From contig DYEP01000139.1 in the NCBI GenBank assembly GCA_020725675.1, positions 1 to 32,085 of the forward strand: a stretch of DNA of 32,085 nucleotides. The letters run 5' to 3'. This DNA is from Symbiobacterium sp. (lineage in GTDB: Bacteria > Bacillota > Sulfobacillia > DUSP01 > DYEP01). A program made the translations under genes and the position numbers. The notes under the pieces were generated by a model, which saw only the letters and a list, made by a program, of their open reading frames with translations, was not told the DNA's origin and did no database searches. Each line of letters opens with the position of its first letter. Position 1 is the stretch's first letter. Positions 7,801 through 30,150 of the stretch are shown here, one piece after another.

Positions 7801-8205
7801 AGTACCGCCGGCAGTAACACGATCATTACCCTCACCATTGGTGATCCATTCATGACAATAAACGGTACCAGAGTAGAGATCGATCCCGGCAGAGGAACTG
7901 TACCGCTGATTAGAGACGGGCGGACGATCCTGCCCATAAGGGCCGTAGTGGAAGCGTTAGGGTGCAGCATAACCTGGAAGGGTGACGAGAGAAAAGTCAC
8001 AATCGTCGGCAGGGGCACTGTGATTGAGATGTGGGTGGATAGTCTAAATATGGTGGTAAACGGGGCGGCTGTTACGAATGATGTGCCACCGATAATCATA
8101 GCGGACCGGACATACGTTCCTGTAAGGTTTGTGGTTGAAAACCTGAATTGTGATATCGACTGGGATCAAACTACACGTACGGTAACCATTTCGAGCAGGG
8201 AATAA
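4816..8205 (+). CDS. Large secreted stalk-domain protein
   Basis: Exported protein of 1129 residues. A signal peptide (RRLLVLFLLPVLVITWMM, cleavage near SLAHA) is followed by a long, mostly beta-rich region without a family I can name. Around 440-500 is a carboxypeptidase-regulatory/Ig-like stretch (GSIVEKGTGKPYANQQILLK). Around 800-975 is a region with a LolA/RseB-like pattern (KGTEQVNGISCQVWEKS, then LPLKVIFYDGYYQRVELLF); this fold guess is tentative. The last ~125 residues are a copper amine oxidase N-like stalk domain, seen as two copies of the DGRTILPIRAVVEALGC / ADRTYVPVRFVVENLNC motif. That domain is common in surface proteins of Clostridia and does not imply amine oxidase activity. 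GGGAGTGA precedes the ATG. The function is unknown, probably cell-envelope. Confidence 0.85.
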   Translation: MFRSSSNRRLLVLFLLPVLVITWMMTSSLAHAFVITDLGTLSLINSNLIQTIGPPSLPSISQEARLRGLQPASLKNVHLRLKPGVKWLTEAQAQVIKNHASAGKISSHLLPTVEPGKIYIDPFSLVALEFVRGEGGILYILLADDDALVEEISIPEQTVFLNEANITYLTQGINITSYKMKSGTTERAGFNLYFDERQTLPGYDQEGKRIEVALKGSLNVDSPAVEVKYTEDNGYKFIFYASQRAEVQAELLAQVKKEVKIPLYDFTVPAEGCKVTVGFFLVLGVDGRITLEFAVRQSLSVRAGLQGNTSCYLPTSFNAVKEVNFDFVPEQLSLAADVKGEMSLLAEVAFDILGKGKVILDNKIGILVEGKAGVQGGSGDYLSIKGDGFVRIDGKVKIKSFDKSKTIYEYKYPIFNYVKARSSSYSIDVAEACAYRDIIQGSIVEKGTGKPYANQQILLKVTSASGVEKNLTATTDSSGSFSRSYDLKKGDQVRVKIPGSADLWSYPREASFPYDYVVIEAADYLSNTVKGYVSGFSQGAPRYTGAVSVFIQRSNNIPLHHQEAISLPIEYTIKLQAQSTAGTFQLQGVDLRPFDRVYAVVDSEGFTITSSVVESEGLIVSVAGGYLQEAQRLSSLNSTVLLGNPGTVPYDGEAILKVATMYPHSSAPENSLKSKEWRLRFAPVPGKGYSIASTGPWELDLHSLVSLISSPLDRFRSSLQGGRSVDYHIFESLKLFVEGKKVEYFNEAKTCEQERIRGLIERVEKTGLIGSVPVGYYLRTLETIALTGQSQTESPVDTRTISTSNCAANVTVKYYPSASASTPTYSRNIKFAILNSQQRVEGAVRDPIIMWDKAAGTKVVEYQEFPRKESLRYDLDDYIPELHNLPLVLKGTEQVNGISCQVWEKSRKIDPIMDIYVKVQLFIAPGSNLPLKVIFYDGYYQRVELLFTNWQKASAAGGSLFAPPFGEIRLPMINLELPTSAHEESAESTTDDSDDSTAGSNTIITLTIGDPFMTINGTRVEIDPGRGTVPLIRDGRTILPIRAVVEALGCSITWKGDERKVTIVGRGTVIEMWVDSLNMVVNGAAVTNDVPPIIIADRTYVPVRFVVENLNCDIDWDQTTRTVTISSRE

Positions 8206-15717: not shown

Positions 15718-17928
15718 TCATCCTTTGTCGCTGCGACTGCGGCCCCCTCGCGCAACGATCAGTCGCAACCACAAGAAACGGACAGGACCTAGTTCCCGTA
15801 TGAATTGCCTCATCAGCGCACGGAGCAGCTTGTGCGCCGTATCCACCGCCGCGCGGGCCGTCACAGGGTCCACGTCGCCATGCCAGCCGTAGCGGGCTTC
15901 CCCATACCAGTTCGCCAGTGCCTGCAAGCGCAGGCGCTCATCCGGAAACCGCTCTGCCAGATGGGCGGCGTACCGGGCTGGTGTTGATGCGGGGTGAGGG
16001 GAAAGCCCGAAATCCGCAAGCAGGCTGGTAAGTCCGTTATAAGCGCGACGGACTGTAGCGGCAGGATCTATTTCTGCACACGATGCTGACAGCCGCTCGC
16101 GGCTGCGGATGCCCACAGCTGACCACCCGACACGAGCAGCCAGCAGGGCAAGCGCGGCGGTAACCAGAAACACCGGAGACCGACCGGTTCTGCCGGCTGG
16201 TCCGCTTCTGCCTCTTTGGGACCCGATGTCCGAGTCGTCTACCAGGTTGTGGAGCGCAGGCAGCACCGGTGCTGCGCCGACAGGTCCATAGGTACTCCCA
16301 CCTGCCGCGACTAACTCTTCTGGGAGGCGTTGGTTGTGGTCCATGGCAGGGAACGAGGGGGTCGGTTCAAAGCATACCCAGCCATAACCGGGGAAGTAAG
16401 CTTCTACCCATGCGTGTGCGTCGGTGTTGGTAATGTCAATCGTCTCCTGCCCTGGTATGAGCTTCACCGCATATCCTTCGACCCACCGGCTTGGAATGCC
16501 GAGTACTCGGAGCATCACTGCCATAGCGGTGGAATGATATAAGCAGTATCCTCGCCTCAGGTCGAACAAGAAGAAGTCGACGAAGTCGCGGCCGGAAGGA
16601 GTGGTCGGGGGATCCAGTGAGTAAGGGATGGACCGCAGGTAGTTTTCGATCGCCCGGGCCTGGTCGTAAGGGTGGCCGTCGCCTGCTACCTGCCAGGCCA
16701 GATGGGCTACGCGCGCTGGCAGGGTCACCGGAAGGCGAAGGTATGAAGCCATGTCATGCTCCGATGGATCTCCGCCTGACAACGCTTTGATCTGATCAGA
16801 GTTATACCGCGGTACTCGTGACAGCACGTAGTACACTTCCCCCCGATTCAGTGCCCGGGGTGACAGCAGGTTAGCATGTTCATCTGCAAGGAATAGTCCG
16901 TCAGTCAGTGTTGCTGTCCTTGGCTCAAGGACAGCGAACAGAGTGGTTAGGGGCCCCTTGAGGATGGTGAACTCAAGTACAAGATCATCTGTGGGAACGC
17001 ACGATTCTTGCCCGGTACCCAAGGAGAGCCCGGAAGCGAATTCCCTGAACCTTGAACCATGAGTGTACCAGGCCTTTCCTGTATAGGTATTTCGGGCCAC
17101 ACCGCGGAGGTATATTACCGGCGGGATGTTCTCTCCGCGAACGCGCAAACGCAGTACCGGGGTACGGTCTAGGGTGACCGGTCCGCCCAGTTCGTCGGGG
17201 TCCGCTCCGAATCCGGAAAGGGCCAGGGAGAACTGGATCCGAAGGCCGGTTCCGTAGCCTTCAGGGCCACGCAGGTCCTGCAGAGATGGAAACGCCTCCA
17301 CAAGCCGCATTGAGATAGATTCAATGTTTATGGGGCGGAAGTGATTGGGCAAAATCTGCGCCAGGCCGGCGACGGCGAGCGTAGTGACCAGGCCATAGAC
17401 AGCGGCGCGAAGCGCGCTGAAGCCTGCATCGGCGGCCTGACGTCGCATAGCCAGGTATGCCGAAAGCGACAGGCCGGCGATCAAGTGCATGACCAGGTAG
17501 TGGTAGGCGGCATCGACGTAGCACAACCATTGGACGGTGAACGTGACGCAACCGACGGCCATAAGCCACAGCACATCGGTTTGCCTCAGGATAAATATGA
17601 AAAACAGGATGGATATGATGAGGGATAGGCTGAGGTGGAGTAGCGGGATCGCAGTGATCACTGCTTCCGCCAGGGCAGCTGCCTGCTCCGGCCACAGTTG
17701 CCATGCGGCCGCGGCTAAGGTGACCGCCGCAATAGTAGTTGCCCCGACGATCCTAGGATAAACGCAGACCGCATATCCAATCAATGTGGCTGTGCCCATC
17801 ACCAGAGCCGGTGTTCCCTCTTTTAGAGGAGTGTACCAGGTTGTGAGTCCAGTCGCTATGGATAGGGTGAGAGTTCCTGCCAGGATTCCTACTGCAACCA
17901 GAGCCACCAGGCGGTCAGGACCTCGCAT
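15718..17928 (-). CDS. TgpA-like membrane transglutaminase-fold protein
   Basis: Membrane protein of about 736 residues. The N-terminal ~210 residues form several transmembrane helices (TgpA/DUF3488 type), an extracytoplasmic domain follows, then a transglutaminase core (~450-530) with the nucleophile in RRGYCLYHSTAM, the His in TNTDAHAWVEAYFPG and the third catalytic position in YGWVCFEPTP (Glu where many have Asp, common in this family). A further helix near 600 and a DUF4129-like C-terminal segment complete it. The ORF track uses GTG 17937; ATG 17928 has a better spaced GGCGGTGA. It overlaps the DUF58 gene start-to-stop, forming the usual MoxR-DUF58-TgpA operon. Substrate unknown; probably envelope-associated. 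Confidence 0.88.
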   Translation of the reverse strand: MRGPDRLVALVAVGILAGTLTLSIATGLTTWYTPLKEGTPALVMGTATLIGYAVCVYPRIVGATTIAAVTLAAAAWQLWPEQAAALAEAVITAIPLLHLSLSLIISILFFIFILRQTDVLWLMAVGCVTFTVQWLCYVDAAYHYLVMHLIAGLSLSAYLAMRRQAADAGFSALRAAVYGLVTTLAVAGLAQILPNHFRPINIESISMRLVEAFPSLQDLRGPEGYGTGLRIQFSLALSGFGADPDELGGPVTLDRTPVLRLRVRGENIPPVIYLRGVARNTYTGKAWYTHGSRFREFASGLSLGTGQESCVPTDDLVLEFTILKGPLTTLFAVLEPRTATLTDGLFLADEHANLLSPRALNRGEVYYVLSRVPRYNSDQIKALSGGDPSEHDMASYLRLPVTLPARVAHLAWQVAGDGHPYDQARAIENYLRSIPYSLDPPTTPSGRDFVDFFLFDLRRGYCLYHSTAMAVMLRVLGIPSRWVEGYAVKLIPGQETIDITNTDAHAWVEAYFPGYGWVCFEPTPSFPAMDHNQRLPEELVAAGGSTYGPVGAAPVLPALHNLVDDSDIGSQRGRSGPAGRTGRSPVFLVTAALALLAARVGWSAVGIRSRERLSASCAEIDPAATVRRAYNGLTSLLADFGLSPHPASTPARYAAHLAERFPDERLRLQALANWYGEARYGWHGDVDPVTARAAVDTAHKLLRALMRQFIRELGPVRFLWLRLIVARGGRSRSDKG

Positions 17929-19111
17929 TACTTTCACCGCCCTTAAGCAGGTCTTCTGTACGATTCAGCACCAGTACGTGAATACCTGCCTGCCGTAGCT
18001 GCGCAATCGCCGGTCCCTGCTCCGGCCCGGTTAGAAATAGGATAGCGCTGAACCCGGCGTCTCTGAGGCGTAGCAGTGTCAGCGCAAGGTCGGAGGACAG
18101 ATGCGGCGTGACGACGGCAATTGTGGATCGTGCTGGCAAGTACAGGCTCTCGTGGGCGAGTACCTGCGCTATCGGTACCCGTCCATCGGCGGTGACCCTT
18201 GCCAGACCTTCAAGGAACTCGTCCAGCTTACGCTGGCCTTTCCCTGCGGGGATTGCCAAGCGCTCCGACCCATAGGCAACAAGACCTGCATCAAATCCCC
18301 GGCGCAAGGCGTAATGGGCGATAGCCAGAGCAACCTCTACCGCGATATCTTGGGCATTATGGGACTTAGCCGAGGTCAGGGCGCCGGAGCTCTGTTCTAA
18401 GTCGAGAAAGATATGTACCTGTGTCGTGGCTGTGAGCTCGTACTCCACCACGTGCAGGCTGCGCTGGCGGGCGGATGTTCGCCAGTGGATTCGCCTCGGG
18501 TTGTCTCCGGGACGGAAAGGGCGCACTTCAGCTGGGTTGGATGGATCCTCAAACGCCCGCTGCCGGGTCCGAAGTCTGCCGAATGGCTGGCGAACGGGCA
18601 TGGGAAGATGATCCACGACTACTAGACGAGGGTAAACGGTGAGATGGCTAAACCCGTAAAAGTCTAGCCTCACCCGGAAGATACCGAATGGATCCCCGGT
18701 GACCAGTTCAACCGGACCGGGTAGATAGTGGCCACGGCGACTGCAGGTGAGTGAGTAAGAGGTTACCGCAGCGCCGAGAGGACCCGGGTTCAAGTGCAGC
18801 ACCGGAGCGGTCCCGCCTGATACCTTTGCGGCAAAGTGGTCGATGAGTGTCGCCCACGGCGATGGACAAAATCCCTCGTTATATAGCCTGAGACGGACAG
18901 TGACTGAGTGGCCGGACGGGACCCGGCGGCGGTCTAGATCGTAACATAAGCTGAGGTTACGCGTCAGTGCCACCGCCCAGGCGTAAGAAACCACCACAAT
19001 ACCGCCAAATATGTACAGGAGAAAGTAGGGCAGGGGTCCACCCACTAAGCACGCCAGCAAAAAGGCGAGCGCAGCCAGGATGAAATAGCGCCGGTCTCTA
19101 ATTGCGACCAT
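17915..19111 (-). CDS. DUF58 domain protein, membrane-anchored
   Basis: A 398-residue protein with two N-terminal transmembrane helices (YFILAALAFLLACLVGG and YFLLYIFGGIVVVSYAW). An Ig-like region (~60-160) is followed by the DUF58 signature with GDNPRRIHWRTSARQRSLHVVEYE (~205-230), and a VWA-like fold with IFLDLEQSS (metal-site-like Asp). DUF58 proteins are routinely encoded with MoxR ATPases and are thought to act with them as chaperone/assembly pairs, but the precise role is not known. It overlaps the upstream MoxR gene by 14 bases and the downstream TgpA gene by about 14, so all three are translationally coupled. Confidence 0.88.
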   Translation of the reverse strand: MVAIRDRRYFILAALAFLLACLVGGPLPYFLLYIFGGIVVVSYAWAVALTRNLSLCYDLDRRRVPSGHSVTVRLRLYNEGFCPSPWATLIDHFAAKVSGGTAPVLHLNPGPLGAAVTSYSLTCSRRGHYLPGPVELVTGDPFGIFRVRLDFYGFSHLTVYPRLVVVDHLPMPVRQPFGRLRTRQRAFEDPSNPAEVRPFRPGDNPRRIHWRTSARQRSLHVVEYELTATTQVHIFLDLEQSSGALTSAKSHNAQDIAVEVALAIAHYALRRGFDAGLVAYGSERLAIPAGKGQRKLDEFLEGLARVTADGRVPIAQVLAHESLYLPARSTIAVVTPHLSSDLALTLLRLRDAGFSAILFLTGPEQGPAIAQLRQAGIHVLVLNRTEDLLKGGESNARS

Positions 19112-20063
19112 GGCTTGGCCTCACCCCAGGCACAGGAATTTGCCCAAGGATCTCGCGGACAATCATTTCGCCCGTCTGCCCGTGCAGCCGCGCTTCTGGC
19201 TTCAACAGTATCCGATGCGGGAGAGTGATGGGGGCCACTTCCATTATGTCGTCAGGTAAAACATAATTACGCCCGCTCATGAGTGCAAGCGCCCGGGCAC
19301 AACGGAAGGTGGCGATGGAACCGCGCGGGCTCGCTCCCAAGTATACATCGGGATGCTTCCGCGTGTGCGTTACGATGCGTATGATATACTCCCGTAAATC
19401 TGGGTGGACGTAGATGTTGTTTACTGCATCTTGAAGAGCAATCACATCGGAGTCAGTGGCCACGGGTACTACCTTGGCCAAAGGGTGTTCGCGTTCCAAT
19501 CGAGCCAGGATTTCCACTTCTTCCGCAGCATGCGGGTAACCAAGGCTTACTCTGATCAGAAACCGGTCAAGTTGGGCCTCGGGAAGAGGGAAGGTGCCCT
19601 CGTACTCGATGGGGTTTTGCGTGGCCAACACAAGGAACGGTCTGGGCAGAGGATGGCTTATACCGTCAACCGTCACCTGCCGCTCCTCCATGCACTCCAG
19701 GAGACTTGATTGGGTCTTGGGTGATGCCCGGTTGATCTCGTCTGCCAGGATGATCTGACCCATGATTGGACCCGGTCGATACTCAAACGTCGCAGTCGAT
19801 TCGTTAAACACCGTTACGCCGGTGATGTCTGATGGTAGCAGGTCCGGCGTGAACTGGATCCGCCTGAAATCGCAGCCCAGTGCCCGGGCCAGGGCTCGCA
19901 CGAGTGTGGTCTTGCCTACCCCGGGGACGTCCTCCAAAAGAACGTGTCCCTGGCAAATCAAAGCAAGGAGGACGTGTTCAATCACGTATCTCTTTCCTAC
20001 GATGGCCTGTTGAACACTATCCAGAACCAGAGCGATCTTCTCTTTTGCTTTGCCGGGCTCCAC
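19098..20063 (-). CDS. MoxR-family AAA+ ATPase
   Basis: A 321-residue AAA+ ATPase of the MoxR class. Walker A is DVPGVGKTTLV (~43-53), Walker B is IILADEINRASPKTQSSLLE (~107-126), sensor 1 is LATQNPIEYEGTFPLPEAQLDRF and the sensor-2 region reads LGASPRGS. These ATPases work as chaperones that insert cofactors or remodel VWA/DUF58 partners, consistent with the DUF58 gene that follows. The start codon is GTG 20063 behind GGGGGGAC with good spacing. It is the first gene of a three-gene operon that looks richer in G+C than the signalling genes at the left of the window. Confidence 0.92.
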   Translation of the reverse strand: MEPGKAKEKIALVLDSVQQAIVGKRYVIEHVLLALICQGHVLLEDVPGVGKTTLVRALARALGCDFRRIQFTPDLLPSDITGVTVFNESTATFEYRPGPIMGQIILADEINRASPKTQSSLLECMEERQVTVDGISHPLPRPFLVLATQNPIEYEGTFPLPEAQLDRFLIRVSLGYPHAAEEVEILARLEREHPLAKVVPVATDSDVIALQDAVNNIYVHPDLREYIIRIVTHTRKHPDVYLGASPRGSIATFRCARALALMSGRNYVLPDDIMEVAPITLPHRILLKPEARLHGQTGEMIVREILGQIPVPGVRPSHGRN

Positions 20064-20429: not shown

Positions 20430-22193
20430 TTAGTCAGCCGGAAGCCGAAGCGCGTCTTGAGCTGCGCGAGGGTAACGTCCGCGGACTACGTAATGAGTGT
20501 GCAGCAATTCATGGGACTTGTGTCCGAGCGGCTTGCCCAAGAACTCCTTGTAAAGCGCCACCACTGCAGGGTTTTCGTGCGACTTGCGGATAGGTAGATT
20601 CCTGTCTGCCTCGTAGATGCCTTCGATGCGACGCATACGTTCTTCGGTAGTAGTGGGTATGGGTTGCCCGCCTCCTCCGATGCATCCACCCGGGCAGCAC
20701 ATGACTTCGACGAAGTGATAGTCGGCCTCGCCCCTTCTTACCCGCTCCATTATCGCCCGGGCATTGGACAAGCCGTGGGCAACAGCGACCTTGAGGGTAA
20801 GATCTCCCAGTTTGACCTGGGACTCCTTGACGCCTTCAAGACCCCGGACTTCTCTGAAATCAAGTGACGGAAGCGTCTCGTTGGTGACCACCTCATACGC
20901 GGTTCGAAGGGCTGCCTCCATCACTCCACCTGTAGCGCCGAAGATCACTGCCGCGCCTGTACTGATTCCAAGGGGCAGGTCATACTCCTCATCCTTCAGG
21001 CTCGCGAATTCAAGGCCCGCCTGCTTGATCATCCTTGCGAGTTCCCTCGTAGTGAGCACATAGTCCACGTCCCTGTAACCGCTTGCGTTCATCTCGCTTC
21101 TTGAGGCTTCGAATTTCTTGGCGGTACACGGCATAATGGAAACGACCACTATATCTGCCGGGTTGATGCCTGCTTTTTGTGCGTAGAACGTCTTGGCCAG
21201 CGCCCCAAACATCTGCTGGGGAGATTTGCACGTGGACAAGTTCGCCAGGTACTCAGGGTAGAAATGTTCCATGAACTTTATCCAGCCGGGGCTGCACGAC
21301 GTGAACATAGGAAGCACTCCGCCCTTTGTCAGCCGTTGGATCAGTTCATGGCCTTCTTCCATAATGGTAAGGTCAGCGGTGAAATCGGTATCGAACACGC
21401 GGTCAAACCCAAGAGCACGCAGAGCTGCCACGAGCTTACCTGTGGTCACTGCACCGACGGGCAGCCCGAACATCTCGCCAATGGATACTCTTACTGCGGG
21501 CGCGGTTTGCACTACCACGTGCTTCTTCGGATCAGCAAGCGCTGCCCAGACTTCGTCGATGTATTCCTTTTCGTGCAGTGCACCCACCGGGCACACCAGT
21601 GTGCACTGCCCGCAGAGTACGCATGCTGCGTCCATCAGGGATTCCCCGAAAGCAGGGCCTACAGTCGTGGATAGGCCGCGTTCGAGCATGCCCACCGCAG
21701 ACACGCCCTGGACCTTTTCACACACAGATACACACCGCCGGCACAGGATGCACTTGTCCTGGTCGCGTATAATTGACGGAGTTGAGACATCCGGTACGCG
21801 GTGTGTTCTCTCGCCCTGGAACCGTACGTCTCTTACCCCTAGCGATTCCGCCAGTTGCTGAAGCTCGCAATTTAGGTTGCGGATGCATGTGGGACACTCA
21901 TATGGGTGATCTGACAGGATGAGCTCCACAGTCAGGCGTCTTGACTTGCGTACCTGCGGGCTGTTGGTGCGCACTACCATGCCGTTGGAAACTGGAGTGA
22001 CGCACGCTGCCTGGAGCGTCCTTGCGCCTTTCACTTCCACTACGCATACCCTGCATGCGCCGATGGCGTTAATGTCCTTCAGGTAGCACAGGGTGGGAAT
22101 ATGGATGCCGGCGAGCTTTGCGGCTTCCAGTATTGTAGTACCTGCCTCAGCCTGTACTTCCTTGTCATCAATAATCAGCTTCACAAGGGCCAT
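20430..22193 (-). CDS. hndD: [FeFe] hydrogenase catalytic subunit (HndD/HydA)
   Basis: Catalytic subunit, 587 residues, for reversible H2 formation. Domains: plant-type [2Fe-2S] (Cys36, 47, 50, 64), the His-Cys cluster motif DHPYECPTCIRNLNC, two [4Fe-4S] clusters (CILCRRCVSVC and CVLCGQCTLVC), the H-cluster domain, and a C-terminal small-subunit-like tail. H-cluster loops: L1 TSCSPGW, L2 MPCTAKK, L3 MCCPGGCIGGGGQP. L1 differs from the textbook TSCCPxW by Ser at the second Cys position; see findings. The size and modular set match HndD/HydA of cytoplasmic NAD(P)-linked or bifurcating hydrogenases. The ORF-track start at 22238 lies within the preceding gene; ATG 22193 follows AAGGAGGG and is the real start. 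It is the last gene of the operon. H-cluster maturases HydEFG are not in the window. Confidence 0.95.
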   Translation of the reverse strand: MALVKLIIDDKEVQAEAGTTILEAAKLAGIHIPTLCYLKDINAIGACRVCVVEVKGARTLQAACVTPVSNGMVVRTNSPQVRKSRRLTVELILSDHPYECPTCIRNLNCELQQLAESLGVRDVRFQGERTHRVPDVSTPSIIRDQDKCILCRRCVSVCEKVQGVSAVGMLERGLSTTVGPAFGESLMDAACVLCGQCTLVCPVGALHEKEYIDEVWAALADPKKHVVVQTAPAVRVSIGEMFGLPVGAVTTGKLVAALRALGFDRVFDTDFTADLTIMEEGHELIQRLTKGGVLPMFTSCSPGWIKFMEHFYPEYLANLSTCKSPQQMFGALAKTFYAQKAGINPADIVVVSIMPCTAKKFEASRSEMNASGYRDVDYVLTTRELARMIKQAGLEFASLKDEEYDLPLGISTGAAVIFGATGGVMEAALRTAYEVVTNETLPSLDFREVRGLEGVKESQVKLGDLTLKVAVAHGLSNARAIMERVRRGEADYHFVEVMCCPGGCIGGGGQPIPTTTEERMRRIEGIYEADRNLPIRKSHENPAVVALYKEFLGKPLGHKSHELLHTHYVVRGRYPRAAQDALRLPAD

Positions 22194-22219
22194 GATCCAT
22201 CCCTCCTTTTTTCTAGACT

Positions 22220-25200
22220 TTACTCCCGAATGTCGCACCTCAGACAGCGGGCTGCTTCCCGCATCGCTGCGTCAGGAGTGTATGAAAGCTCTACCTCACA
22301 GAAAGAGCATAGTCGTTCTGAAACGGGGACCGTTTTTATCTTCTCTCTATGTGTAACGTCTTCCAGAAGTTCGTAGCTTGCAGTTCTGGTGACTTCAAGC
22401 TCGGGCATTAGCACCCCGTCTCCTCCGAGGAATTTGTCGATAGACGATGCGGCAGCCTTACCCGCGGCGATGGCTTCTATCACTGTGGCGGGCCCGGTGA
22501 CGCAGTCCCCGGCTGCAAACACCCACGGCACATTGGTTGCGTAACTGTCGGGGTTCACTGACAGCACGCCGCCCTTGCCCACTGCAAGACCCTCGTCCAC
22601 AAGGGGGTCAGATTCTGGCACCTGACCGATGGCGGGTATGACCACGTCCGCCCTTATCAGGAATTCCGACCGGTCAATGGGAACCGTCCGGCGACGCCCA
22701 CTGGCATCGAATTCGGCCGGCCGCATCATGACACATTGCAACGCTTCGACCTTGCCGTTACCCATGACTTGCACGGGGTTCACCATAGGTGTGATCTTAA
22801 TACCCTCGCGTTCGGCCTCTTCTATTTCGGCTGCTTCGGCAGGCATGTCTTCTTTTCTGCGCCTGTAAACGATGGTTACCTCTGCGGCTCCTAAGCGTTT
22901 TGCTGAGCGGGCAGCATCTATCGCCACGTTACCTCCGCCTACTACGACGACGGCCTTGCCTCTGACATCCATACCTTTGCCGAGGTTCACATCGCGCAGG
23001 AAGGACGCTCCCGGGACCACTCCCGGCAGGTCTTCTCCCGGGATGGAGAGACGCTGGTCTTTGTGGGCGCCGATAGCGATGAACACTGCGGCGTATCCCT
23101 GTTCCTTCAGGTCGGCCAGGCTGAAATGCTTGCCCAGAGCCCTTTCAGTCTGGATCTCCATGCCGAACTCGCGGAGTATTTCGATCTCCTTGTTTAGGAC
23201 CTGTTTGGGTAGCCGGTACTCGGGAATACCCACTGTAAGCATGCCTCCAACTACCGGCAGCGCTTCGAAAACAGTCACCGAGTAGCCCTTAAGCGACAGG
23301 TAGTAGCCGGCGGTTAGCCCTGCAGGCCCCGAGCCAATAACAGCCACCTTTTTTCCGTTTCGCGGAGCAGATGTCAAACGCGGCCTTGCGCCGTTGGAGT
23401 TTACCGCGTAGTCTGCAGCAAACCTCTTTAGTGCCTTGATAGCCAAAGGCTCATCGATTTGTTCCCGCCTGCACCTTGACTCACAGGGGTGGTGGCACAC
23501 CCTGCCGCAGATCACGGGCAGCGGGTTGTTTCTCATGATGGTCTCATAGGCATCTATGAACAGTCCCTGCCTTATCTGGTCGATATAGATGGGCACGTCC
23601 ACTTCAGCGGGACAGGTATTCTGACATGGTGAGTGAAACAGGGACGCGCATACGGATGCCGGGCACTTCTTCTTTCTGATGTGCGCCTCGTACTCATGCC
23701 TGAAGTACCTGATGGTGCTGAGTACTGGATTGGGCGCTGTCTGCCCGAGACCGCAAAGGGCTGAAGCCTTTATTGATTCTCCGAGCTCGACGAGCAGGTC
23801 AATATCGCCTTCCTTGCCTTCTCCGTGCGCGATGCGGTCAAGGATCTCGAGCATCCGCTTGGTCCCGATACGGCAGGGCGTGCACTTACCGCACGATTCA
23901 TCCTGGACGAACTCAAGGAAGAATCTGGCCAGGTCGACCATGCAGGTGTCTTCGTCCATGACGATGAGCCCGCCTGAGCCCATGATCGTGCCCAGCGCGC
24001 TCAGAGACTCATAGTCGATGGGTGTGTTCAGGTGCTGCACGGGGATGCATCCGCCTGACGGACCGCCCGTTTGTGCTGCCTTGAAGCGCTTACGCCCTGG
24101 TATGCCCCCGCCGATATCGAAAACAATATCACCGAGAGTGGTACCCATGGGTACCTCTACAAGCCCGTTGTTGTTGATCTTTCCTGCCAGAGCGAATACC
24201 TTGGTACCTTTTGAACCCTCTGTACCGATGCTTGCAAACCATTCCGGACCCTTAAGTATGATAGAGGGAACATTTGCGAACGTTTCCACATTGTTTATTA
24301 TAGTCGGACGGTCCCAGAGTCCCGAGTTGGCAGGGAATGGTGGACGCGGCCTTGGTTCGCCTCTTCTACCCATTATGGATGTGAGCAGTGCAGTCTCCTC
24401 GCCGCATACAAACGCTCCCGCTCCCAGGCGGATCTCAATATCGAAGTCAAACCCGGAGTTGAATATGTTCTTGCCAAGAAGACCCTTCTCTCTGGCTTGC
24501 CGTATGGCGATGACAAGCCTGCGCACTGCGATGGGGTACTCGGCCCGGATGTATATGAAGCCACGCGATGCACCTATGGCGTAGCCGGCAATGGCCATAC
24601 CCTCCAGGACAGAGTGGGGATCTCCCTCAAGGGTGCTTCTGTCCATGAACGCACCGGGATCACCTTCGTCCGCGTTACATACCACATATTTGGGTGTACC
24701 CTGTGCCTTTGCCGCGAACTCCCATTTTAGGCCGGTAGGGAACCCTCCGCCGCCCCTGCCGCGTAGCCCAGATTTCCTGACCGTTTCGATGACATCCTCT
24801 GGCTTCATCTCTGTGACCACTCGGCCGAGAGCCAGGTAACCGTCGCGGGCGATGTATTCTTCGATATTTTCAGGATCGATTACGCCACAGTTCTTCAGTA
24901 CGATGCGGTACTGCTTTTTGAAAAATTCGATGTCATTGAAATCGACTACCGCCACGTTATCTACCGGTTCATGGTACAGAAGGCGTGTGAGCGTACGACC
25001 TTTTATAAAGTGTTCCTCCACCAGCTCAGGTACGTCTTCCACTTGTACCTGGCAGTAGAAAACACCTTCGGGGTATACCATAATGTTAGGACCGAACCTG
25101 CAAAATCCAAAGCAACCAGTTTCCACTACGCGAATCTCTTTGTCAAGACCGCGTGAAGCGATCTCCTCGCGCAGCGCATGCCTGAGCGCCTCGCTGTTAG

Positions 25201-25255
25201 ATGCTTCACAACCGGTACCCGCACAAACAAGTACGTGAGAACGATAAAACTCCAT
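22220..25255 (-). CDS. hndC: HndC/HydB NuoF-like subunit fused to GltD/NfnB module
   Basis: Flavoprotein of 1011 residues, about twice the usual ~500-600 for HndC/HydB. N-terminal thioredoxin-like [2Fe-2S] domain (Cys11, 16, 48, 52); NuoF domain with the FMN/NADH loop GRGGGGFPTGLKWEF (~166-180) and [4Fe-4S] ligands Cys455, 458, 461 and 501. From ~530 the usual C-terminal ferredoxin domain is replaced by a GltD-type module: two [4Fe-4S] motifs (Cys531/536/544/548 and 583/587/591/595), FAD site AVIGSGPAGLTAGYYL, and NAD(P) site VVVGGGNVAIDAARSAKRLG with VYRRRKEDMPA, the Arg-rich pattern of NADPH-binding GltD proteins. The C-terminus has CSFC and CLRC. It thus offers both an FMN/NAD(H) and an FAD/NADP(H) site next to a hydrogenase. 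It lies between HndB and the catalytic subunit. The reading frame is continuous. Confidence 0.93.
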   Translation of the reverse strand: MEFYRSHVLVCAGTGCEASNSEALRHALREEIASRGLDKEIRVVETGCFGFCRFGPNIMVYPEGVFYCQVQVEDVPELVEEHFIKGRTLTRLLYHEPVDNVAVVDFNDIEFFKKQYRIVLKNCGVIDPENIEEYIARDGYLALGRVVTEMKPEDVIETVRKSGLRGRGGGGFPTGLKWEFAAKAQGTPKYVVCNADEGDPGAFMDRSTLEGDPHSVLEGMAIAGYAIGASRGFIYIRAEYPIAVRRLVIAIRQAREKGLLGKNIFNSGFDFDIEIRLGAGAFVCGEETALLTSIMGRRGEPRPRPPFPANSGLWDRPTIINNVETFANVPSIILKGPEWFASIGTEGSKGTKVFALAGKINNNGLVEVPMGTTLGDIVFDIGGGIPGRKRFKAAQTGGPSGGCIPVQHLNTPIDYESLSALGTIMGSGGLIVMDEDTCMVDLARFFLEFVQDESCGKCTPCRIGTKRMLEILDRIAHGEGKEGDIDLLVELGESIKASALCGLGQTAPNPVLSTIRYFRHEYEAHIRKKKCPASVCASLFHSPCQNTCPAEVDVPIYIDQIRQGLFIDAYETIMRNNPLPVICGRVCHHPCESRCRREQIDEPLAIKALKRFAADYAVNSNGARPRLTSAPRNGKKVAVIGSGPAGLTAGYYLSLKGYSVTVFEALPVVGGMLTVGIPEYRLPKQVLNKEIEILREFGMEIQTERALGKHFSLADLKEQGYAAVFIAIGAHKDQRLSIPGEDLPGVVPGASFLRDVNLGKGMDVRGKAVVVVGGGNVAIDAARSAKRLGAAEVTIVYRRRKEDMPAEAAEIEEAEREGIKITPMVNPVQVMGNGKVEALQCVMMRPAEFDASGRRRTVPIDRSEFLIRADVVIPAIGQVPESDPLVDEGLAVGKGGVLSVNPDSYATNVPWVFAAGDCVTGPATVIEAIAAGKAAASSIDKFLGGDGVLMPELEVTRTASYELLEDVTHREKIKTVPVSERLCSFCEVELSYTPDAAMREAARCLRCDIRE

Positions 25256-25288: not shown

Positions 25289-25672
25289 TCACGACGATTT
25301 CGTATCTACTGGCTTTACGTTGACTGCCCATTCCGTAATGGGCTGTCCGTTTACCACGTGCTGGGCGACGATCCGCCTCGCCTTGTCTGCCGTGACATTT
25401 CCATATGTCACAGGCACTTGGCCTGGAATAACCACGTCAATCAAAGGCTCGCGGGCACAAAGCCCAATGCACCCTGTCTGGGTAACTGATACCGTGCTCA
25501 GCTTGCGCTTTTGGAGCTCATCCAAGATTGCTGCTACTACTTCACGCGCGCCAGCGGCGATACCGCAGGTCCCCATACCCACTACAATACGTGGGTGTTC
25601 ACTCATCTCACGAAGTCTGATCGTCTCCAGAGCCCGTTCCTTAATGCGCGCCAGATCTTCAAGGGACTTCAA
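25289..25672 (-). CDS. hndB: HndB-like thioredoxin-fold [2Fe-2S] protein
   Basis: A 127-residue protein like HndB of NADP-reducing hydrogenases, proposed to carry a thioredoxin-like [2Fe-2S] cluster. Motifs: VVGMGTCGIAAGA (Cys36) and TQTGCIGLCAREP (Cys68, Cys72). Only three Cys are present; the position matching the first Cys of the HndC N-terminal domain is Gly, so cluster binding may need another ligand or may differ. A TTG start at 25672 is chosen because AGGGGGGTGAG is placed eight bases upstream. The gene overlaps the end of the preceding GHKL ATPase gene by 14 bases and is followed after 33 bases by HndC, so it is firmly in the operon. Confidence 0.88.
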   Translation of the reverse strand: MKSLEDLARIKERALETIRLREMSEHPRIVVGMGTCGIAAGAREVVAAILDELQKRKLSTVSVTQTGCIGLCAREPLIDVVIPGQVPVTYGNVTADKARRIVAQHVVNGQPITEWAVNVKPVDTKSS

Positions 25673-26228
25673 TGTTCAGCTCACCCCCCTGGTTGTTCTC
25701 CGAAATGCTTTTGTAGATCCAATCCTTGAGCCATTGAATGACCATAGGGTGGGTTATGGGTACCTCACCCAGTTCCGCCTTTATCTGTGCGGTGTCTAGC
25801 TCGAACTCCCGCGTACCCCACTTGTAACGGAGCCTAAGATTGACATTGGGAGTCGAGGCTACTATCACTGCCACAGTGCCTGCCAGGTCACCGAGCGGTG
25901 GGCGATCGATGTGGCGAAGCCCGAACCATGCGTGGACGGTGGTGCCTTTGCCCGGTTCGGAATGCACAGCCACACCGCCACCGCTTGCGCGGGCCGAATC
26001 CTGCAGCAGCGGCAACCCAAGCCCCACACGCCTGGTTTTCCGCGTTGTGTAGTAGGGACAGAGCACGCGATGTTGCGCCTCAGTTGGGATACCCTTACCG
26101 TTATCAGTCACGATGATATCGATGCGGTCACGCTCAGGGTGGCAAGTGATGTCTACACCCACCCAGGTGGCGCCTGCTTCGACCGAGTTACGGAACAAGT
26201 CCAGAACGTGCAAAGCCAGCTCTTCCAC
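25659..26228 (-). CDS. Stand-alone GHKL ATPase domain protein
   Basis: A 189-residue protein with a histidine-kinase-type ATPase domain but no phosphoacceptor domain or sensor. N-box: LDLFRNSVEAGATWVGVDI; G1: VTDNGKGIP; then CPYYTTRKTRRVGLGLPLLQDSA and G2 GKGTTVHAWF. The C-terminal ~75 residues (AVIVASTPNVNLRLRYKWGTREFELDT) are a separate domain I cannot name. Similar genes are known within clostridial [FeFe] hydrogenase operons, where their role is unclear; a regulatory kinase is a fair guess. The start is GTG 26228, two bases after the HndA stop. Confidence 0.85.
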   Translation of the reverse strand: MEELALHVLDLFRNSVEAGATWVGVDITCHPERDRIDIIVTDNGKGIPTEAQHRVLCPYYTTRKTRRVGLGLPLLQDSARASGGGVAVHSEPGKGTTVHAWFGLRHIDRPPLGDLAGTVAVIVASTPNVNLRLRYKWGTREFELDTAQIKAELGEVPITHPMVIQWLKDWIYKSISENNQGGELNIEVP

Positions 26229-26230
26229 GG

Positions 26231-26719
26231 CTACTTCTTCTTCCTATATCTGTCCAGGATACCGCTTACCCGGTCTGGTTTCATTCTGGCGTGGGTATCC
26301 TTGTTCACGGTGATTACTGGAGCCAGCCCGCAGGCACCCAGGCACCTGACCACCTCGAGCGAGAACTCGCCGTCGTCAGTGCTGTCACCCGCTTTTATGC
26401 CCAGTTCCTTCTCGAACCGCTCAAGCACCTTTGGGGCCCCCCTTACATAGCAGGCGGTGCCGTTGCAGCACGAAATTTGATGCCTACCCTTGGGTTTCAG
26501 TGAGAAGAAGGCGTAGAACGTCACAACTCCGTAAACATCTGCGAGTGGGACGCCAAGACCCTCTGAAATCCTGACCATGATGTCCTTTGGGACATATCCC
26601 AGTGATTCTTGGGCAGTATGAAGCACCTGGATCAAGCCGTCTGGCTGGTTTTTGTGAGACTCGATCGCTTTATCCACTTCCTGATATGCCTTTTCACAGG
26701 CGCATGCCGGTTCAGCCAT
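26231..26719 (-). CDS. hndA: HndA NuoE-like [2Fe-2S] subunit
   Basis: A 162-residue homologue of NuoE/HydC. An N-terminal helical bundle (CEKAYQEVDKAIESHKNQPDGLIQVLHTAQESLGYVP) is followed by a thioredoxin-like domain with [2Fe-2S] ligands in SCCNGTACYVRGAP and RCLGACGLAP. It should transfer electrons between the NuoF-like HndC and the rest of the complex. The ORF track extends to 26938 through the PHP gene; ATG 26719 is the real start, behind GGGGGGAG, and fits the family length. Fifty bases separate it from the PHP gene. The next gene starts two bases after its stop. Confidence 0.93.
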   Translation of the reverse strand: MAEPACACEKAYQEVDKAIESHKNQPDGLIQVLHTAQESLGYVPKDIMVRISEGLGVPLADVYGVVTFYAFFSLKPKGRHQISCCNGTACYVRGAPKVLERFEKELGIKAGDSTDDGEFSLEVVRCLGACGLAPVITVNKDTHARMKPDRVSGILDRYRKKK

Positions 26720-26769
26720 ACTTGATTTCTCCCCCCATCCTTTCATTTGCACTCCCGTTGGCGCTCGGG

Positions 26770-27504
26770 CTACCTCCAGGCGACTGCCCGGCGGCCACAG
26801 GTTCCTTTGAGGGCCATCCGCATTTCGGAAACTGACAGGTCTCTGACGTAGAAGGCCGTTTTCCCCTGCCGAATATCGCTCGGTGTGTGCGCATCCGAGT
26901 TTAAAAGCAGTGAGTGTCCGCCATAAGCCTCCGGACACAGTGGGTTACCACACCGGTCGGACACTTCAAGCCCATCAACGGCAAGATCCGGAGGGAAAAG
27001 CCCAAGGACGTTCAGGAGACCTCCTCTTTCCCTATCGATGTGTGCCGGAATGCACAATCCCCCTGAATGCCGGGTCATGAACGCCAGCTGATTTATGCTC
27101 AGGTTGCAGGCACACGAAAGAAGTAAAGTCTCTTCGCCTGTCTGGATTCCTTTGTCATTGAACACTATCTGTCTTCCAAAGATCGAAACGTCATTGTTCC
27201 TACACGGCAGGTTAGCATAGATCACCTCCTGAAAAGATTCGGCTTTGATCGGGTCGTCGAATATACAAAGCACGTGGACTTCCTCTCTCGATGTCACCTC
27301 TAGCCCTGATAGCACTCGAAGAGTTGTACCTTTGGCCGTGCTGATCAGAGCCCTGCAATTCTTTGCGCTGTTATGGTCCGTAATTGCTATGCCGTCAAGG
27401 CTCGCCTCCAGTGCCCGACCCACTATGTTCCCAGGAGTCATGGCATCGTCCGCGCACGGCGAGAGCGCAGTGTGAATATGCAGGTCCACGAACAACCAGC
27501 GCAT
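26770..27504 (-). CDS. PHP-domain metal-dependent phosphoesterase
   Basis: A 244-residue PHP-fold hydrolase. Metal-binding motifs are intact: VDLHIHTALSPCADD (HxH), IAITDHNSAKN, GLEVTSREEVHVLCIF, IPAHIDRERGG and LLLNSDAHTPSDI. The family hydrolyses phosphate mono- or diesters (nucleotides, histidinol phosphate and others); the substrate here is unknown. The start is ATG 27504, overlapping the DRTGG stop as TGATG. Such a gene is known to accompany clostridial hydrogenase operons, yet no redox role has been shown to my knowledge. It might act on a nucleotide signal connected with the DRTGG protein; that is inference. Confidence 0.9.
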   Translation of the reverse strand: MRWLFVDLHIHTALSPCADDAMTPGNIVGRALEASLDGIAITDHNSAKNCRALISTAKGTTLRVLSGLEVTSREEVHVLCIFDDPIKAESFQEVIYANLPCRNNDVSIFGRQIVFNDKGIQTGEETLLLSCACNLSINQLAFMTRHSGGLCIPAHIDRERGGLLNVLGLFPPDLAVDGLEVSDRCGNPLCPEAYGGHSLLLNSDAHTPSDIRQGKTAFYVRDLSVSEMRMALKGTCGRRAVAWR

Positions 27505-27836
27505 CACGTATCCAATATCCGGTGCAGTCTTCCTGCTACCTCAAAGGATGGATCCTGCGTACACAATATGGGGATGCCGTCCCGTTTCGCTCTTTCCAGA
27601 GTATCTTCGTGAGGTGCTCTGCCACCGGTAATGATAATAGCGGATAGATTTGCCAGTACTGCCACGGCCACAATGTTCTGATGAGTCTGGATGGTGATCC
27701 AGATGTCTTTTTCCTTGGCACGAGCCATCACGTCAGACAGCAGGTCACCACAGTAGCCACCGCGGACGGTCTTTTCAAGTCCATTGCCTGCCCTGATCTC
27801 CAATCCCAGTGCACGCGCGATCTCCTCTACGGTCAT
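27504..27836 (-). CDS. DRTGG domain protein
   Basis: A 110-residue protein consisting almost only of a DRTGG-type domain: VEEIARALGLEIRAGNG, then VRGGYCGDLLSDVMARAKEKDIWITIQTHQNIVAVAVLANLSAIIITGGRAP. The domain also occurs in some phosphotransacetylases and CBS-domain proteins, where it is regarded as regulatory; its ligand is not established. ATG 27836 overlaps the end of the sensory-hydrogenase-like gene (ATGA) and the stop overlaps the PHP start (TGATG), so three genes are translationally coupled. Confidence 0.87.
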   Translation of the reverse strand: MTVEEIARALGLEIRAGNGLEKTVRGGYCGDLLSDVMARAKEKDIWITIQTHQNIVAVAVLANLSAIIITGGRAPHEDTLERAKRDGIPILCTQDPSFEVAGRLHRILDT

Positions 27837-29155
27837 TCAGCCTCATCCTTTCTGCTTGAGGGAATCTCCCGAGGAGCCATGGCAGGAGGGACTTTTCTCG
27901 CAAGGGCGACCATCTCCTCGGCCAACTGGTGAACCCGTTCACGAAGCTTGAAGATACAGTCTGTTTCATATGCACGGTTGTTTACGATATCTTCAGCGAG
28001 GGCGCGGCAGCTCGGAGCGCCACACGAGCCGCAGTCAAGTCCTGGAAGGCGCGCTTCTGTGGCTTCGAGCTGGTTCATCTTGGCTATTGCTCGTGACAAA
28101 TCCGTATCCAGGGATAGCGCAAACCTCGGCGACACCCGTTTTGTGAAACGAAAGACGTCCAAGCTGCCAGATATCGAATAAGGGACGGGGTCCGATGTCT
28201 CCACAAGTTTCCTCACCCGAATTCTTGACACAAAGGGGTTTTCCACGGTAAGACAACCGCCCACGCATCCGCCGACGCAGGCTTGAGCTTCGATGAAGTC
28301 CAGGTCACCGAGGCGTCCTCTTTCTACCTCATTCAGTACGGTAATTACGTTGTGAATACCGTCCACCGCCAGGCTGTTTACACCCAGCGACTGCATCTCT
28401 CCACCCGCCCTGCCCCAACCTACTCCCGACCTCGAACCCCTTGGATAATCGGTCAAGGGTTCGACTTTGTCGATCAAGGATCGTATTACGGAAAAGACCT
28501 CATTCATCGAGATGACCGCGTCTACTGAGGAATCGGTGACTCCTACGGGCTGCTTGGATGCGGTTACCTTTGCAGGGCAGGGAGTAATAAAAAACGCGCC
28601 CACTTGACCTGTGACGCCCCGTTCGGACGCCCTCTGCTTGGCAATCCTGGCTGCGACCTCCATCGGAGCAAGCACCGGGATGATGTTCTCCACTAGCGCT
28701 GCGTATTTGACCTGCACCAGCCTGAGCACAGCAGGGCAGGCGGAAGAAATGAGCGGCCGCGGCTGCAGGTGGTTGTCAAGGTAGTCCAGGATAGTCGCTG
28801 TAACTACGTCCGCTGCTGCCGATACCTCAAACACGTCGTCAAACCCGGCCAGCACCAGTGCACCCGCAACCCGCGCGGGATCAGTACCGTCTTCAAACTG
28901 CCCCATCAGAGAGGGCGCGGGCAATGCCACCGTATAGTCAAAGGCTGACAGAAGGTCCATTGGGTCGGTTACCGCGAGTTTGGCCTTGTTCGGGCATCTT
29001 CTGATGCATTCTCCGCAGTCAATGCACCGCTCTTCCATGATCCTGGCCTTTCCCGCGCTCACCCTTATGGCCTCTGTGGGACAGCGCTTGATACAGTTGG
29101 TGCAGCCCTTGCACTTCTCCTGATCCAGCCTGACCGAGTGAAAGTACCTGGTCAC
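27833..29155 (-). CDS. Sensory-type [FeFe]-hydrogenase-like protein
   Basis: About 440 residues. Two [4Fe-4S] ferredoxin clusters at the N-terminus (KCKGCTNCIKRCP and CIDCGECIRRCP), an [FeFe]-hydrogenase large-subunit domain, and a C-terminal [4Fe-4S] motif DCGSCGAPSC...DC like that of RnfB. H-cluster-type loops are L1 SSACPAV, L2 ITPCPAK and L3 QACVGGCVGGC. In L1 the proton-transfer Cys of catalytic enzymes is Ala and the Trp is lost, as in putative sensory hydrogenases, while potential cluster ligands remain. It probably senses H2 or redox state rather than turning over H2. Starts: GTG 29167 (ORF track) or GTG 29155; AAAGGTGG favours 29155. The flanking GHKL ATPase and DRTGG genes support a signalling role. 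Confidence 0.87.
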   Translation of the reverse strand: MTRYFHSVRLDQEKCKGCTNCIKRCPTEAIRVSAGKARIMEERCIDCGECIRRCPNKAKLAVTDPMDLLSAFDYTVALPAPSLMGQFEDGTDPARVAGALVLAGFDDVFEVSAAADVVTATILDYLDNHLQPRPLISSACPAVLRLVQVKYAALVENIIPVLAPMEVAARIAKQRASERGVTGQVGAFFITPCPAKVTASKQPVGVTDSSVDAVISMNEVFSVIRSLIDKVEPLTDYPRGSRSGVGWGRAGGEMQSLGVNSLAVDGIHNVITVLNEVERGRLGDLDFIEAQACVGGCVGGCLTVENPFVSRIRVRKLVETSDPVPYSISGSLDVFRFTKRVSPRFALSLDTDLSRAIAKMNQLEATEARLPGLDCGSCGAPSCRALAEDIVNNRAYETDCIFKLRERVHQLAEEMVALARKVPPAMAPREIPSSRKDEAE

Positions 29156-29173
29156 CGACACGACCACCTTTCG

Positions 29174-29626
29174 CTATCGCTCTACCAGGATCACCGAGTG
29201 CACTCTGGTACCCACACCCACAACCGACTCTATCGCAAAAGTATCTGAATGCGCCTTCATATTTGGCAGGCCCATCCCAGCCCCAAAACCCATCTCTCGC
29301 ACTGAGGGCGGTGCGGTAGAAAAACCCTCCTCCATTGCCCGGTCAATGTCCGGTATACCGGGACCTTCATCCACCGCTTCGATCGTAACCTGCTTCGGCG
29401 TGATGGTTGCCTGCAACGTGCCCCTGATCGCGTGTATGATGATATTCATTTCAGCCTCATAGGTGACGATAGCGACCCGCCTGGTGACGGAGGCAGGCAG
29501 CCCGAGCTGCACACACACCTCTCTGATGTGGGCAGAGGCCTCACCTCCAGATGCAAAATCCATTCCCCGTATGTGAAACTTTACGGACAGACTCGTATCC
29601 TCCGGGCTCGCCGGGCGGTCGGTCAC
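29174..29626 (-). CDS. RsbT/RsbW-like GHKL serine kinase or anti-sigma factor
   Basis: A 150-residue single-domain ATPase of the anti-sigma/serine kinase class. N-box VTYEAEMNIIIHAIRG, G1 DEGPGIPD, G2-like MGFGAGMGLPNMKAHSD and the terminal VGVGTRVHSVIL. RsbT/RsbW proteins phosphorylate small STAS antagonists or bind sigma factors; no STAS or sigma gene is in the window. The start is GTG 29626 behind AAGGTAGG; 7 bases separate it from the sensory-hydrogenase-like ORF. Similar proteins are known upstream of such hydrogenase-like genes in Clostridia, suggesting a joint signalling pair. Confidence 0.87.
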   Translation of the reverse strand: MTDRPASPEDTSLSVKFHIRGMDFASGGEASAHIREVCVQLGLPASVTRRVAIVTYEAEMNIIIHAIRGTLQATITPKQVTIEAVDEGPGIPDIDRAMEEGFSTAPPSVREMGFGAGMGLPNMKAHSDTFAIESVVGVGTRVHSVILVER

Positions 29627-29634
29627 ACTTGCAC

Positions 29635-30150
29635 CTACCTTGTCTGGCGTCTCCAGGCTGATGACTGTATGATGAGCGCTGCTAATAAGGCTCCTATCAG
29701 GGCCGTGAACAGCTGGTTAACCGTCAGCGTGGTCACAAGCACTGGAGGTACCTTAATGTTTGGAGCCAAAATCAGTTTGACGCCTGCTGTCATCACCGCA
29801 TACTTTACCACCGCTGCACTGCAAGCAGCGATCCAGCACGCGGGACGGGTATGGAACGACTTTGAAAGCACTGCCCAGAGAAAGTAGAAGGTGAGCACCA
29901 GGGCTGCGTTACCAGCCATGATCACAGGCAGTGCTGGCGCAAACTTCATTATTCCGGTGGTCAGAGCCACCCACGGGGTAATCAACCCGACAATGACCCC
30001 GAACACAGGGCCGACAAGAGCCGATGTGACAAATAGTATGGCGTTGATCACAGGCCCTGTGATCATCTGGCCGAGTCCGGCGCTCTGTACCGCAAGCGCA
30101 AGCGCGAGAAGTACTGCTGTCTGCACCATAGACTTAAGCTCGATCTTCAT
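29635..30150 (-). CDS. ECF transporter S-component-like membrane protein
   Basis: A 171-residue, very hydrophobic protein with about five or six transmembrane helices, starting MKIELKSMVQTAVLLALALAVQ, a pattern typical of ECF S-components (substrate-binding subunits of vitamin/metal importers). The internal GPVINAILFVTSALVGPVFGVIVG also fits that fold. No ECF ATPase or T-component gene is nearby, so it would share modules encoded elsewhere, or serve another role. It is the first gene of the hydrogenase operon, with AGGGGG seven bases before ATG. The substrate is unknown. Confidence 0.78.
   Translation of the reverse strand: MKIELKSMVQTAVLLALALAVQSAGLGQMITGPVINAILFVTSALVGPVFGVIVGLITPWVALTTGIMKFAPALPVIMAGNAALVLTFYFLWAVLSKSFHTRPACWIAACSAAVVKYAVMTAGVKLILAPNIKVPPVLVTTLTVNQLFTALIGALLAALIIQSSAWRRQTR

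Follow-up and report, generated by a model that had tools for sequence, protein, structure and literature searches.

The locus described here raises the question of which electron carriers an [FeFe] hydrogenase can use when its diaphorase subunit continues into an FAD-dependent nucleotide module instead of ending in a ferredoxin-docking tail. It lies in a contig of the anaerobe Symbiobacterium sp. (DYEP01000139.1), and the whole 32,085-nucleotide stretch that was analysed is referred to below as the window.

The fusion protein and its operon

The fusion is a single intact frame, read from ATG to stop on the reverse strand (Table 1). Its residues 1–540 align gap-free with HydB of A. mobile, and its N-terminal half nearly gap-free with HydB of A. 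woodii. This similarity ends where the ferredoxin-like tail of those two proteins starts, and from about residue 543 onward the protein aligns with the GltD parts of StnC, NfnA and NfnB. The domain found in canonical tails (587–600 aa, ~10 Cys) is absent from the fusions, and an SLBB domain is placed by Pfam at aa 354–402. The frame, the Pfam matches and the alignments confirm that the fusion is a HydB/HndC core in which DPD_II and an FAD/NADP(H) domain occupy the place of the ferredoxin (B3/B4) domain; the sequence-only reading had likewise described a NuoF-like HndC that lacks the ferredoxin tail and runs into a GltD-type FAD/NADP(H) module.

The gene belongs to a tightly packed operon with the order hndA-HATPase-hndB-fusion-hydA, which recurs in many homologous loci. 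The window HydA carries the marks of a group A [FeFe] hydrogenase, namely the H-cluster motifs P1–P3 (TSCSPGW at 313, MPCTAKK at 369 and MCCPGGCIGGGGQ at 513) and a match above the cutoff for TIGR02512/NF040763 (936 bits against 765 for NF040763). Its translation probably starts at the ATG at residue 16, at about 22193. The HndA domain covers aa 89–231, and the listed GTG start of that gene is therefore probably too far upstream. Together, the domain matches and the NF040763 match bear out the proposal that one chain adjoining HydA carries both an FMN/NAD(H) and an FAD/NADP(H) centre. No NfnA-type partner is fused to, or encoded in, the window operon.

A reverse-strand cassette 5′ of hndA (26770-30150) includes genes for a PHP domain protein and a DRTGG protein, a sensor-like [FeFe] hydrogenase with an FeS domain (27833-29167) and a small HATPase_c protein (29174-29626), with 29635-30150 unassigned; much the same gene order is seen in many hydrogenase loci. 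Directly 3′ of hydA, genes for a MoxR-like AAA ATPase, a DUF58 protein and a transglutaminase/DUF4129 protein stand in a row (15718-20063, reverse strand). On the forward strand, 4816-8205 encodes a 1129-aa protein whose sole recognised domain is a C-terminal Cu_amine_oxidN1.

Table 1. Coordinates of the fusion, its domains, the operon genes and the Glu_synthase-domain partners. Positions are those of the window unless a locus is named.
Feature	Position	Strand	Basis or detail
HydA/HndD, group A [FeFe] hydrogenase large subunit	20430..22238	-	NF040763
NuoF/HydB-GltD fusion (HndC-like, BfuB 'sub-type I' layout)	22220..25255	-	1011 aa
Thioredoxin-like 2Fe-2S domain, N-terminal	25013..25240	-	Pfam aa 6-81; B5 cluster C11/C16/C48/C52
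Complex1_51K, FMN/NAD(H)-binding	24266..24781	-	Pfam aa 159-330
NADH_4Fe-4S, B1 cluster	23681..23935	-	Pfam aa 441-525; C455/458/461/501
Hinge, Zn-or-B2 ligands H525, C531, C536 (with C438)	23648..23683	-	PMC9304861, PMC9499530
DPD_II (Fer4_20), two 4Fe-4S clusters	23396..23665	-	Pfam aa 531-620; C544, C548, C587, C591, C595
Lys610 codon inside DPD_II	23426-23428	-	
GltD/StnC-like FAD + NADP(H) domain (Pyr_redox_2)	22460..23353	-	aa 635-932; GSGPAG, GGGN, YRR
C-terminal RCLRC, permuted Cys pair, putative 4Fe-4S completion	22235..22249	-	alignment
HndB-like small 2Fe-2S thioredoxin-fold subunit	25289..25672	-	profile match
HATPase_c protein, conserved within operon	25659..26228	-	profile match
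HndA/HydC/NuoE-like subunit, C1 cluster	26231..26938	-	Cys 158, 163, 199, 203
Glu_synthase-domain partners, ~525-545 aa	L028:9850-11427, L030:10256-11839, L053:9771-11411, L055:7275-8906, L124:10802-12382		

Distribution and partner proteins

In 84,980 species genomes and 60 relatives, 61 full-length homologues were identified. Each is an open frame, 997–1038 aa long from the match start save for two that run to contig ends (L027, 968 aa; L039, 956 aa). Since these frames are open and of near-equal length, the fusion is no assembly join, and a frame artefact is ruled out by the same 61 intact homologues. At least 59 of the 399 genomes in a phylum sample have a full-length match, and by their record titles the homologous loci belong to Bacillota, Atribacterota, Chloroflexota, Planctomycetota, Verrucomicrobiota, Spirochaetota, Acidobacteriota, Bacteroidota and others. 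One homologue, L013, belongs to a cultured relative, Pelotomaculum terephthalicicum JT. The fusion layout is real, common and widespread across many phyla.

An H-cluster HydA accompanies the fusion in about 43/61 loci. This count leaves out L027, whose H-cluster match is the neighbouring sensor-like gene, and the L046 locus is cut by a contig end. The co-occurrence with hydA, suggested earlier as a check, is thus seen in these loci, and other partners take its place elsewhere. The A-type partner is a formate dehydrogenase alpha chain with molybdopterin domains in L017, L018, L020, L025, L031, L045 and L058, and both such partners tested score above the TIGR01591 cutoff. In L018, L020, L031 and L058 the formate dehydrogenase gene, 3′ of the fusion, contains an in-frame TGA, a probable selenocysteine codon. 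In five further loci (L028, L030, L053, L055, L124), the fusion has as neighbours genes for a NuoG-N-like protein and a Glu_synthase-domain protein, which come after it. On gene content, the fusion may be a two-nucleotide module that is retained as the third substrate varies, and its retention where formate replaces H2 is what would be expected if it supplied two standing carriers.

A formate dehydrogenase alpha chain paired with the fusion was also seen at L125:10598-13200. In six loci the fusion is followed by another hndA and by a HydB that lacks the tail. Both HydB proteins of L121, L122 and L123 come with a HydA of their own, which makes two hydrogenase sets in tandem; L014, L016 and L038 have one hydA only.

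Conservation of cofactor residues

Conservation was scored over the 61 full-length homologues, with residues numbered as in the window protein. The cysteines of B1 and DPD_II and the four hinge residues listed in Table 1 are all invariant (61/61), as are Lys610 and the FAD-loop glycines. The FMN/NAD residues are strictly conserved in the full-length form. In the YRR motif, R798 is found in 61/61 and R799 in 60/61 homologues, and among the B5 ligands C48 and C52 are present in 61/61, C11 in 57/61 and C16 in 56/61. The C-terminal CxxC (C1004/C1007) is kept in all 58 homologues that reach the end. The corresponding pair is N-terminal in NfnB and lies after the GltD part in StnC, so that C1004/C1007 looks circularly permuted; it would supply part of the Fe-S ligands of the C-terminal half, completing a 4Fe-4S cluster.

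Lys610 aligns to K170 of StnC, which is located at the cluster beside the FAD. Lys occupies this position in 44/44 fusions, in 4/4 short forms (see below) and in 10/10 StnC-type proteins, whereas its equivalent in NfnB is Glu in 7/8 proteins and Gln in one; the fusions thus lack the Glu that ligates the proximal 4Fe-4S cluster and marks NfnB/NfnL. The FAD of StnC has been described as non-bifurcating, passing NADPH electrons to FMN (PMC10482914), and the FAD of the fusion is therefore read as a feeder. The C-terminal module had been called GltD/NfnB-type. The GltD part of that description stands, and an NfnB-type identity is ruled out by Lys610 and the C-terminal position of the CxxC; judged by its sequence, the module is StnC-like, not NfnB-like. 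Similarity of motifs suggests that its nucleotide site prefers NADP over NAD.

His525 has been tied to bifurcating BfuB (PMC9304861). However, a control set of HydB proteins without the ferredoxin tail keeps H525, C531 and C536 equally, and in this set the hinge therefore does not tell whether an enzyme is coupled or uncoupled. Hinge residues were accordingly dropped as proof of bifurcation.

A short form without the FMN domain

Four genomes (G007, G048, G060, G032) encode a form of ~610 aa that comprises NADH_4Fe-4S and GltD (L139-L142). The FMN domain is absent from it, and no NuoE match was found at those loci. It adjoins an H-cluster HydA, which for L139 scores above the NF040763 cutoff. 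The short form retains the ligands of B1 and of DPD_II as well as K610 and the YRR motif, has Ala at 536, and is placed among the Bacillota fusions in the tree. Since it stands beside HydA, GltD can apparently be wired to HydA, and the short form points to a possible route for NADPH electrons to HydA that runs by way of B1 and needs no FMN. We regard it as a candidate NADPH-only [FeFe] hydrogenase.

These proteins also bear on whether the GltD half takes part in catalysis. That this half is a passive or regulatory add-on through which no electrons pass would be hard to credit, as the cluster, FAD and NADP motifs are fully conserved over many phyla and GltD is the only nucleotide site of the short form. 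A dead NADP site or a cleaved-off GltD part, either of which was seen beforehand as able to overturn the idea, finds no support: the YRR arginines are kept in 60–61 of 61 homologues, and the short GltD form pairs with HydA.

Evolution and predicted structure

Quick trees were built for the two halves separately. In the tree of HydB halves the fusions need 6–8 changes, at least three of them forced by well-supported branches, and a single clade of these halves is rejected (AU p 0.012), which speaks against a single origin of the whole fusion. One clade of GltD halves is not rejected (AU p 0.82, with L133 excluded from the test), and NfnB stands apart. Since the HydB halves do not form one clade and the GltD halves possibly do, the tails appear to have been swapped repeatedly, and tail exchange on a HydB backbone fits the tree pattern. 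In the L106/L124 fusion (G001), the HydB half lies near the Glu_synthase-partnered group and the GltD half beside the window's clade. This suggests domain recombination, though a long branch makes the placement unsure.

An AF2 model of the fusion, built with 46 homologues, has a pLDDT of 90.1 and a pTM of 0.87. Foldseek matched one half to HydB chains and the other half to StnC/NfnA chains; none of the 50 best matches was a solved chain that covers both halves.

Proposed function and alternatives

We read the complex as a soluble HydABC/Bfu-type group A [FeFe] hydrogenase in which a StnC-like GltD module stands in place of the ferredoxin-docking tail of HydB, and which is linked to both NAD(H) and NADP(H); we give this reading about one chance in two. 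NADP(H) would be the second carrier, taking ferredoxin's place. Electrons would pass reversibly from NADPH through the FAD and the two DPD_II clusters to the FMN/B1 region, and from there through the HydA clusters to the H-cluster, with NAD(H) exchanging hydride at FMN. The net reaction would be 2 H2 + NAD+ + NADP+ <-> NADH + NADPH + 2 H+, probably running towards H2 in vivo. Oxidation of NADH and NADPH would be gated (confurcation), so that the enzyme would not simply burn NADPH to NADH. The sequence-only reading had treated electron routes through the fusion as inference, and that caution holds. The parts of the proposal differ in strength. Use of NADP(H) by the complex is highly probable, and ferredoxin is probably not a substrate. 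True coupling of both nucleotides is a tentative proposal. Somewhat more speculative is the fullest version, a ferredoxin-free confurcating hydrogenase with gated NADH and NADPH oxidation to H2, in which NADPH replaced ferredoxin through a HydB tail swap and whose module was reused for formate dehydrogenase.

The idea that ferredoxin is a fourth coupled carrier, close to what was first suggested for this locus, would have it exchange at the DPD_II clusters, NADP(H) at the FAD and NAD(H) at FMN. In NfnAB, electrons leave for ferredoxin through the DPD_II clusters. Every DPD_II Cys ligand is present in the fusion, and ferredoxin could dock there as in NfnB, which counts against our reading. However, the position of the NfnB Glu ligand is Lys in every fusion, as in StnC with its non-bifurcating FAD, and StnABC reaches ferredoxin through a separate B3/B4 domain (PMC10482914) that the fusion lacks. 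With the docking domain missing and the FAD StnC-like, a four-carrier complex is less likely than one of NAD(H), NADP(H) and H2, and we consider it unlikely.

Coupling itself could also be absent. In an uncoupled NADP(H)/NAD(H) hydrogenase all three pools would equilibrate through one cluster chain, with NADPH as the effective H2 donor and NADH as a side entry. Loss of B3/B4 is shared with the non-bifurcating HydB of S. wolfei (PMC11406978), the hinge is uninformative, and the short form has no NAD site at all and is still found with HydA. Such an enzyme would, however, leak NADPH to NADH across a gap of about 90 mV, taking the potentials assumed below, and the strict conservation of FMN/NAD residues in the full form, with a NuoE-like gene nearly always adjacent, also counts against it. 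We therefore regard an uncoupled enzyme as a serious alternative of rather low probability.

Relation to known systems

The same replacement was described in 2024 for the 'sub-type I' BfuB of Hydrogenedentota, in which B3/B4 give way to DPD_II and an FAD/NAD(P) domain (Zheng & Huang 2024, PMC11406978), and the architecture reported here is therefore not new. The group A3 BfuABC(D) enzymes of Hydrogenedentota, some of them with BfuD, show this BfuB beside an H-cluster BfuA, and the window fusion has the same layout. The window differs in belonging to a Bacillota-type clade, in its operon order and in residues that favour a StnC-like feeder FAD. Homologues in several phyla were listed in PMC11406978; loci from the phyla given there as close form a clade separate from that of the window, in a tree that holds no Hydrogenedentota sequences. 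Zheng & Huang also proposed a possible second, FAD-based bifurcation centre for sub-type I, so that FMN-FeS and a canonical bifurcating FAD would act together. Both flavin domains are indeed there, but residue 610 is Lys rather than Glu and the operon offers neither a fused nor a separate NfnA-type partner, and we consider two such centres improbable.

Canonical HydABC of A. woodii, T. kivui and T. maritima (7q4v, 8a6t, 7p8n) shares HydA, HydC and the HydB core with FMN, B1 and hinge, whereas the C-terminal part of its HydB is a ferredoxin domain with two clusters. Of the marks of Bfu/HydABC enzymes (PMC9304861), the fusion and its operon have the BfuB core with FMN/NAD, B1 and B5, the hinge ligands, which are a weak mark of bifurcation, and a NuoE-like BfuC with C1. 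B3 and B4 in a C-terminal ferredoxin domain are missing, their place being taken by DPD_II and the FAD/NADP domain, and we therefore do not file the enzyme as a canonical bifurcating Bfu enzyme. The Sporomusa-type transhydrogenase StnABC/NfnABC (PMC7483475, PMC10482914; 8oh5, 9bov, 9n5u) shares the StnC-like GltD with its proximal-cluster Lys, NuoE and a HydB-like core. In that enzyme, however, it is the NuoG-like A subunit (BfuA) that bears the GltD domain, HydB keeps the ferredoxin tail and there is no H-cluster, whereas the window GltD is carried on HydB. NfnAB (4ylf, 5jca) shares the DPD_II, FAD and NADP(H) fold and differs in the Glu near the proximal cluster, the N-terminal CxxC and the NfnA partner. 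In Pelobacter carbinolicus, an SfrB-like NADPH oxidoreductase adjoins the [FeFe] hydrogenase HndD1, and its GltD-type module has been proposed as the partner (PMC3543383); this separate protein, unfused to an FMN/NADH domain, resembles the short form.

No biochemistry on any fusion member, and no characterised NuoF-GltD hydrogenase beyond PMC11406978, was found in a search that covered subscription papers thinly. As far as we searched, the present analysis adds the StnC-like Lys, the exchange of partners, the short form and the tail-swap pattern.

Genome context and energetics

No group A [FeFe] hydrogenase other than the window HydA was found in the genome, and this HydA is also the only strong PF02906 match there (346 bits; others 181, 124 and 109). 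The same genome encodes a separate canonical HydB that adjoins formate dehydrogenase and thiolase (L119), NfnAB (L120) and two RnfC. We infer that ferredoxin goes to Rnf, that Nfn makes NADPH and that the window hydrogenase disposes of NADH and NADPH as H2.

Limits on H2 were computed from assumed cellular potentials of -280 mV for NADH and -500 mV for ferredoxin (PMC9304861) and -370 to -380 mV for NADPH (PMC6288185, PMC9304861). They are about 3 Pa for NADH alone, about 100–145 Pa for NADH with NADPH, 3–7 kPa for NADPH alone and about 15 kPa for NADH with ferredoxin.

NAD(H) and ferredoxin have been regarded as the fixed substrates common to Bfu enzymes, with a third that varies (PMC9304861). 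If the tail swap truly puts NADP(H) in the place of ferredoxin, one of these 'fixed' partners would be exchangeable. The natural series of ferredoxin tail, GltD tail, no tail and GltD without the FMN domain would then make the mechanism of bifurcation directly testable. Ferredoxin-free confurcation, if true, would allow H2 up to about 100–145 Pa at the assumed potentials, between NADH alone and NADH with ferredoxin, and predictions of H2 yield would change for many uncultured fermenters and syntrophs.
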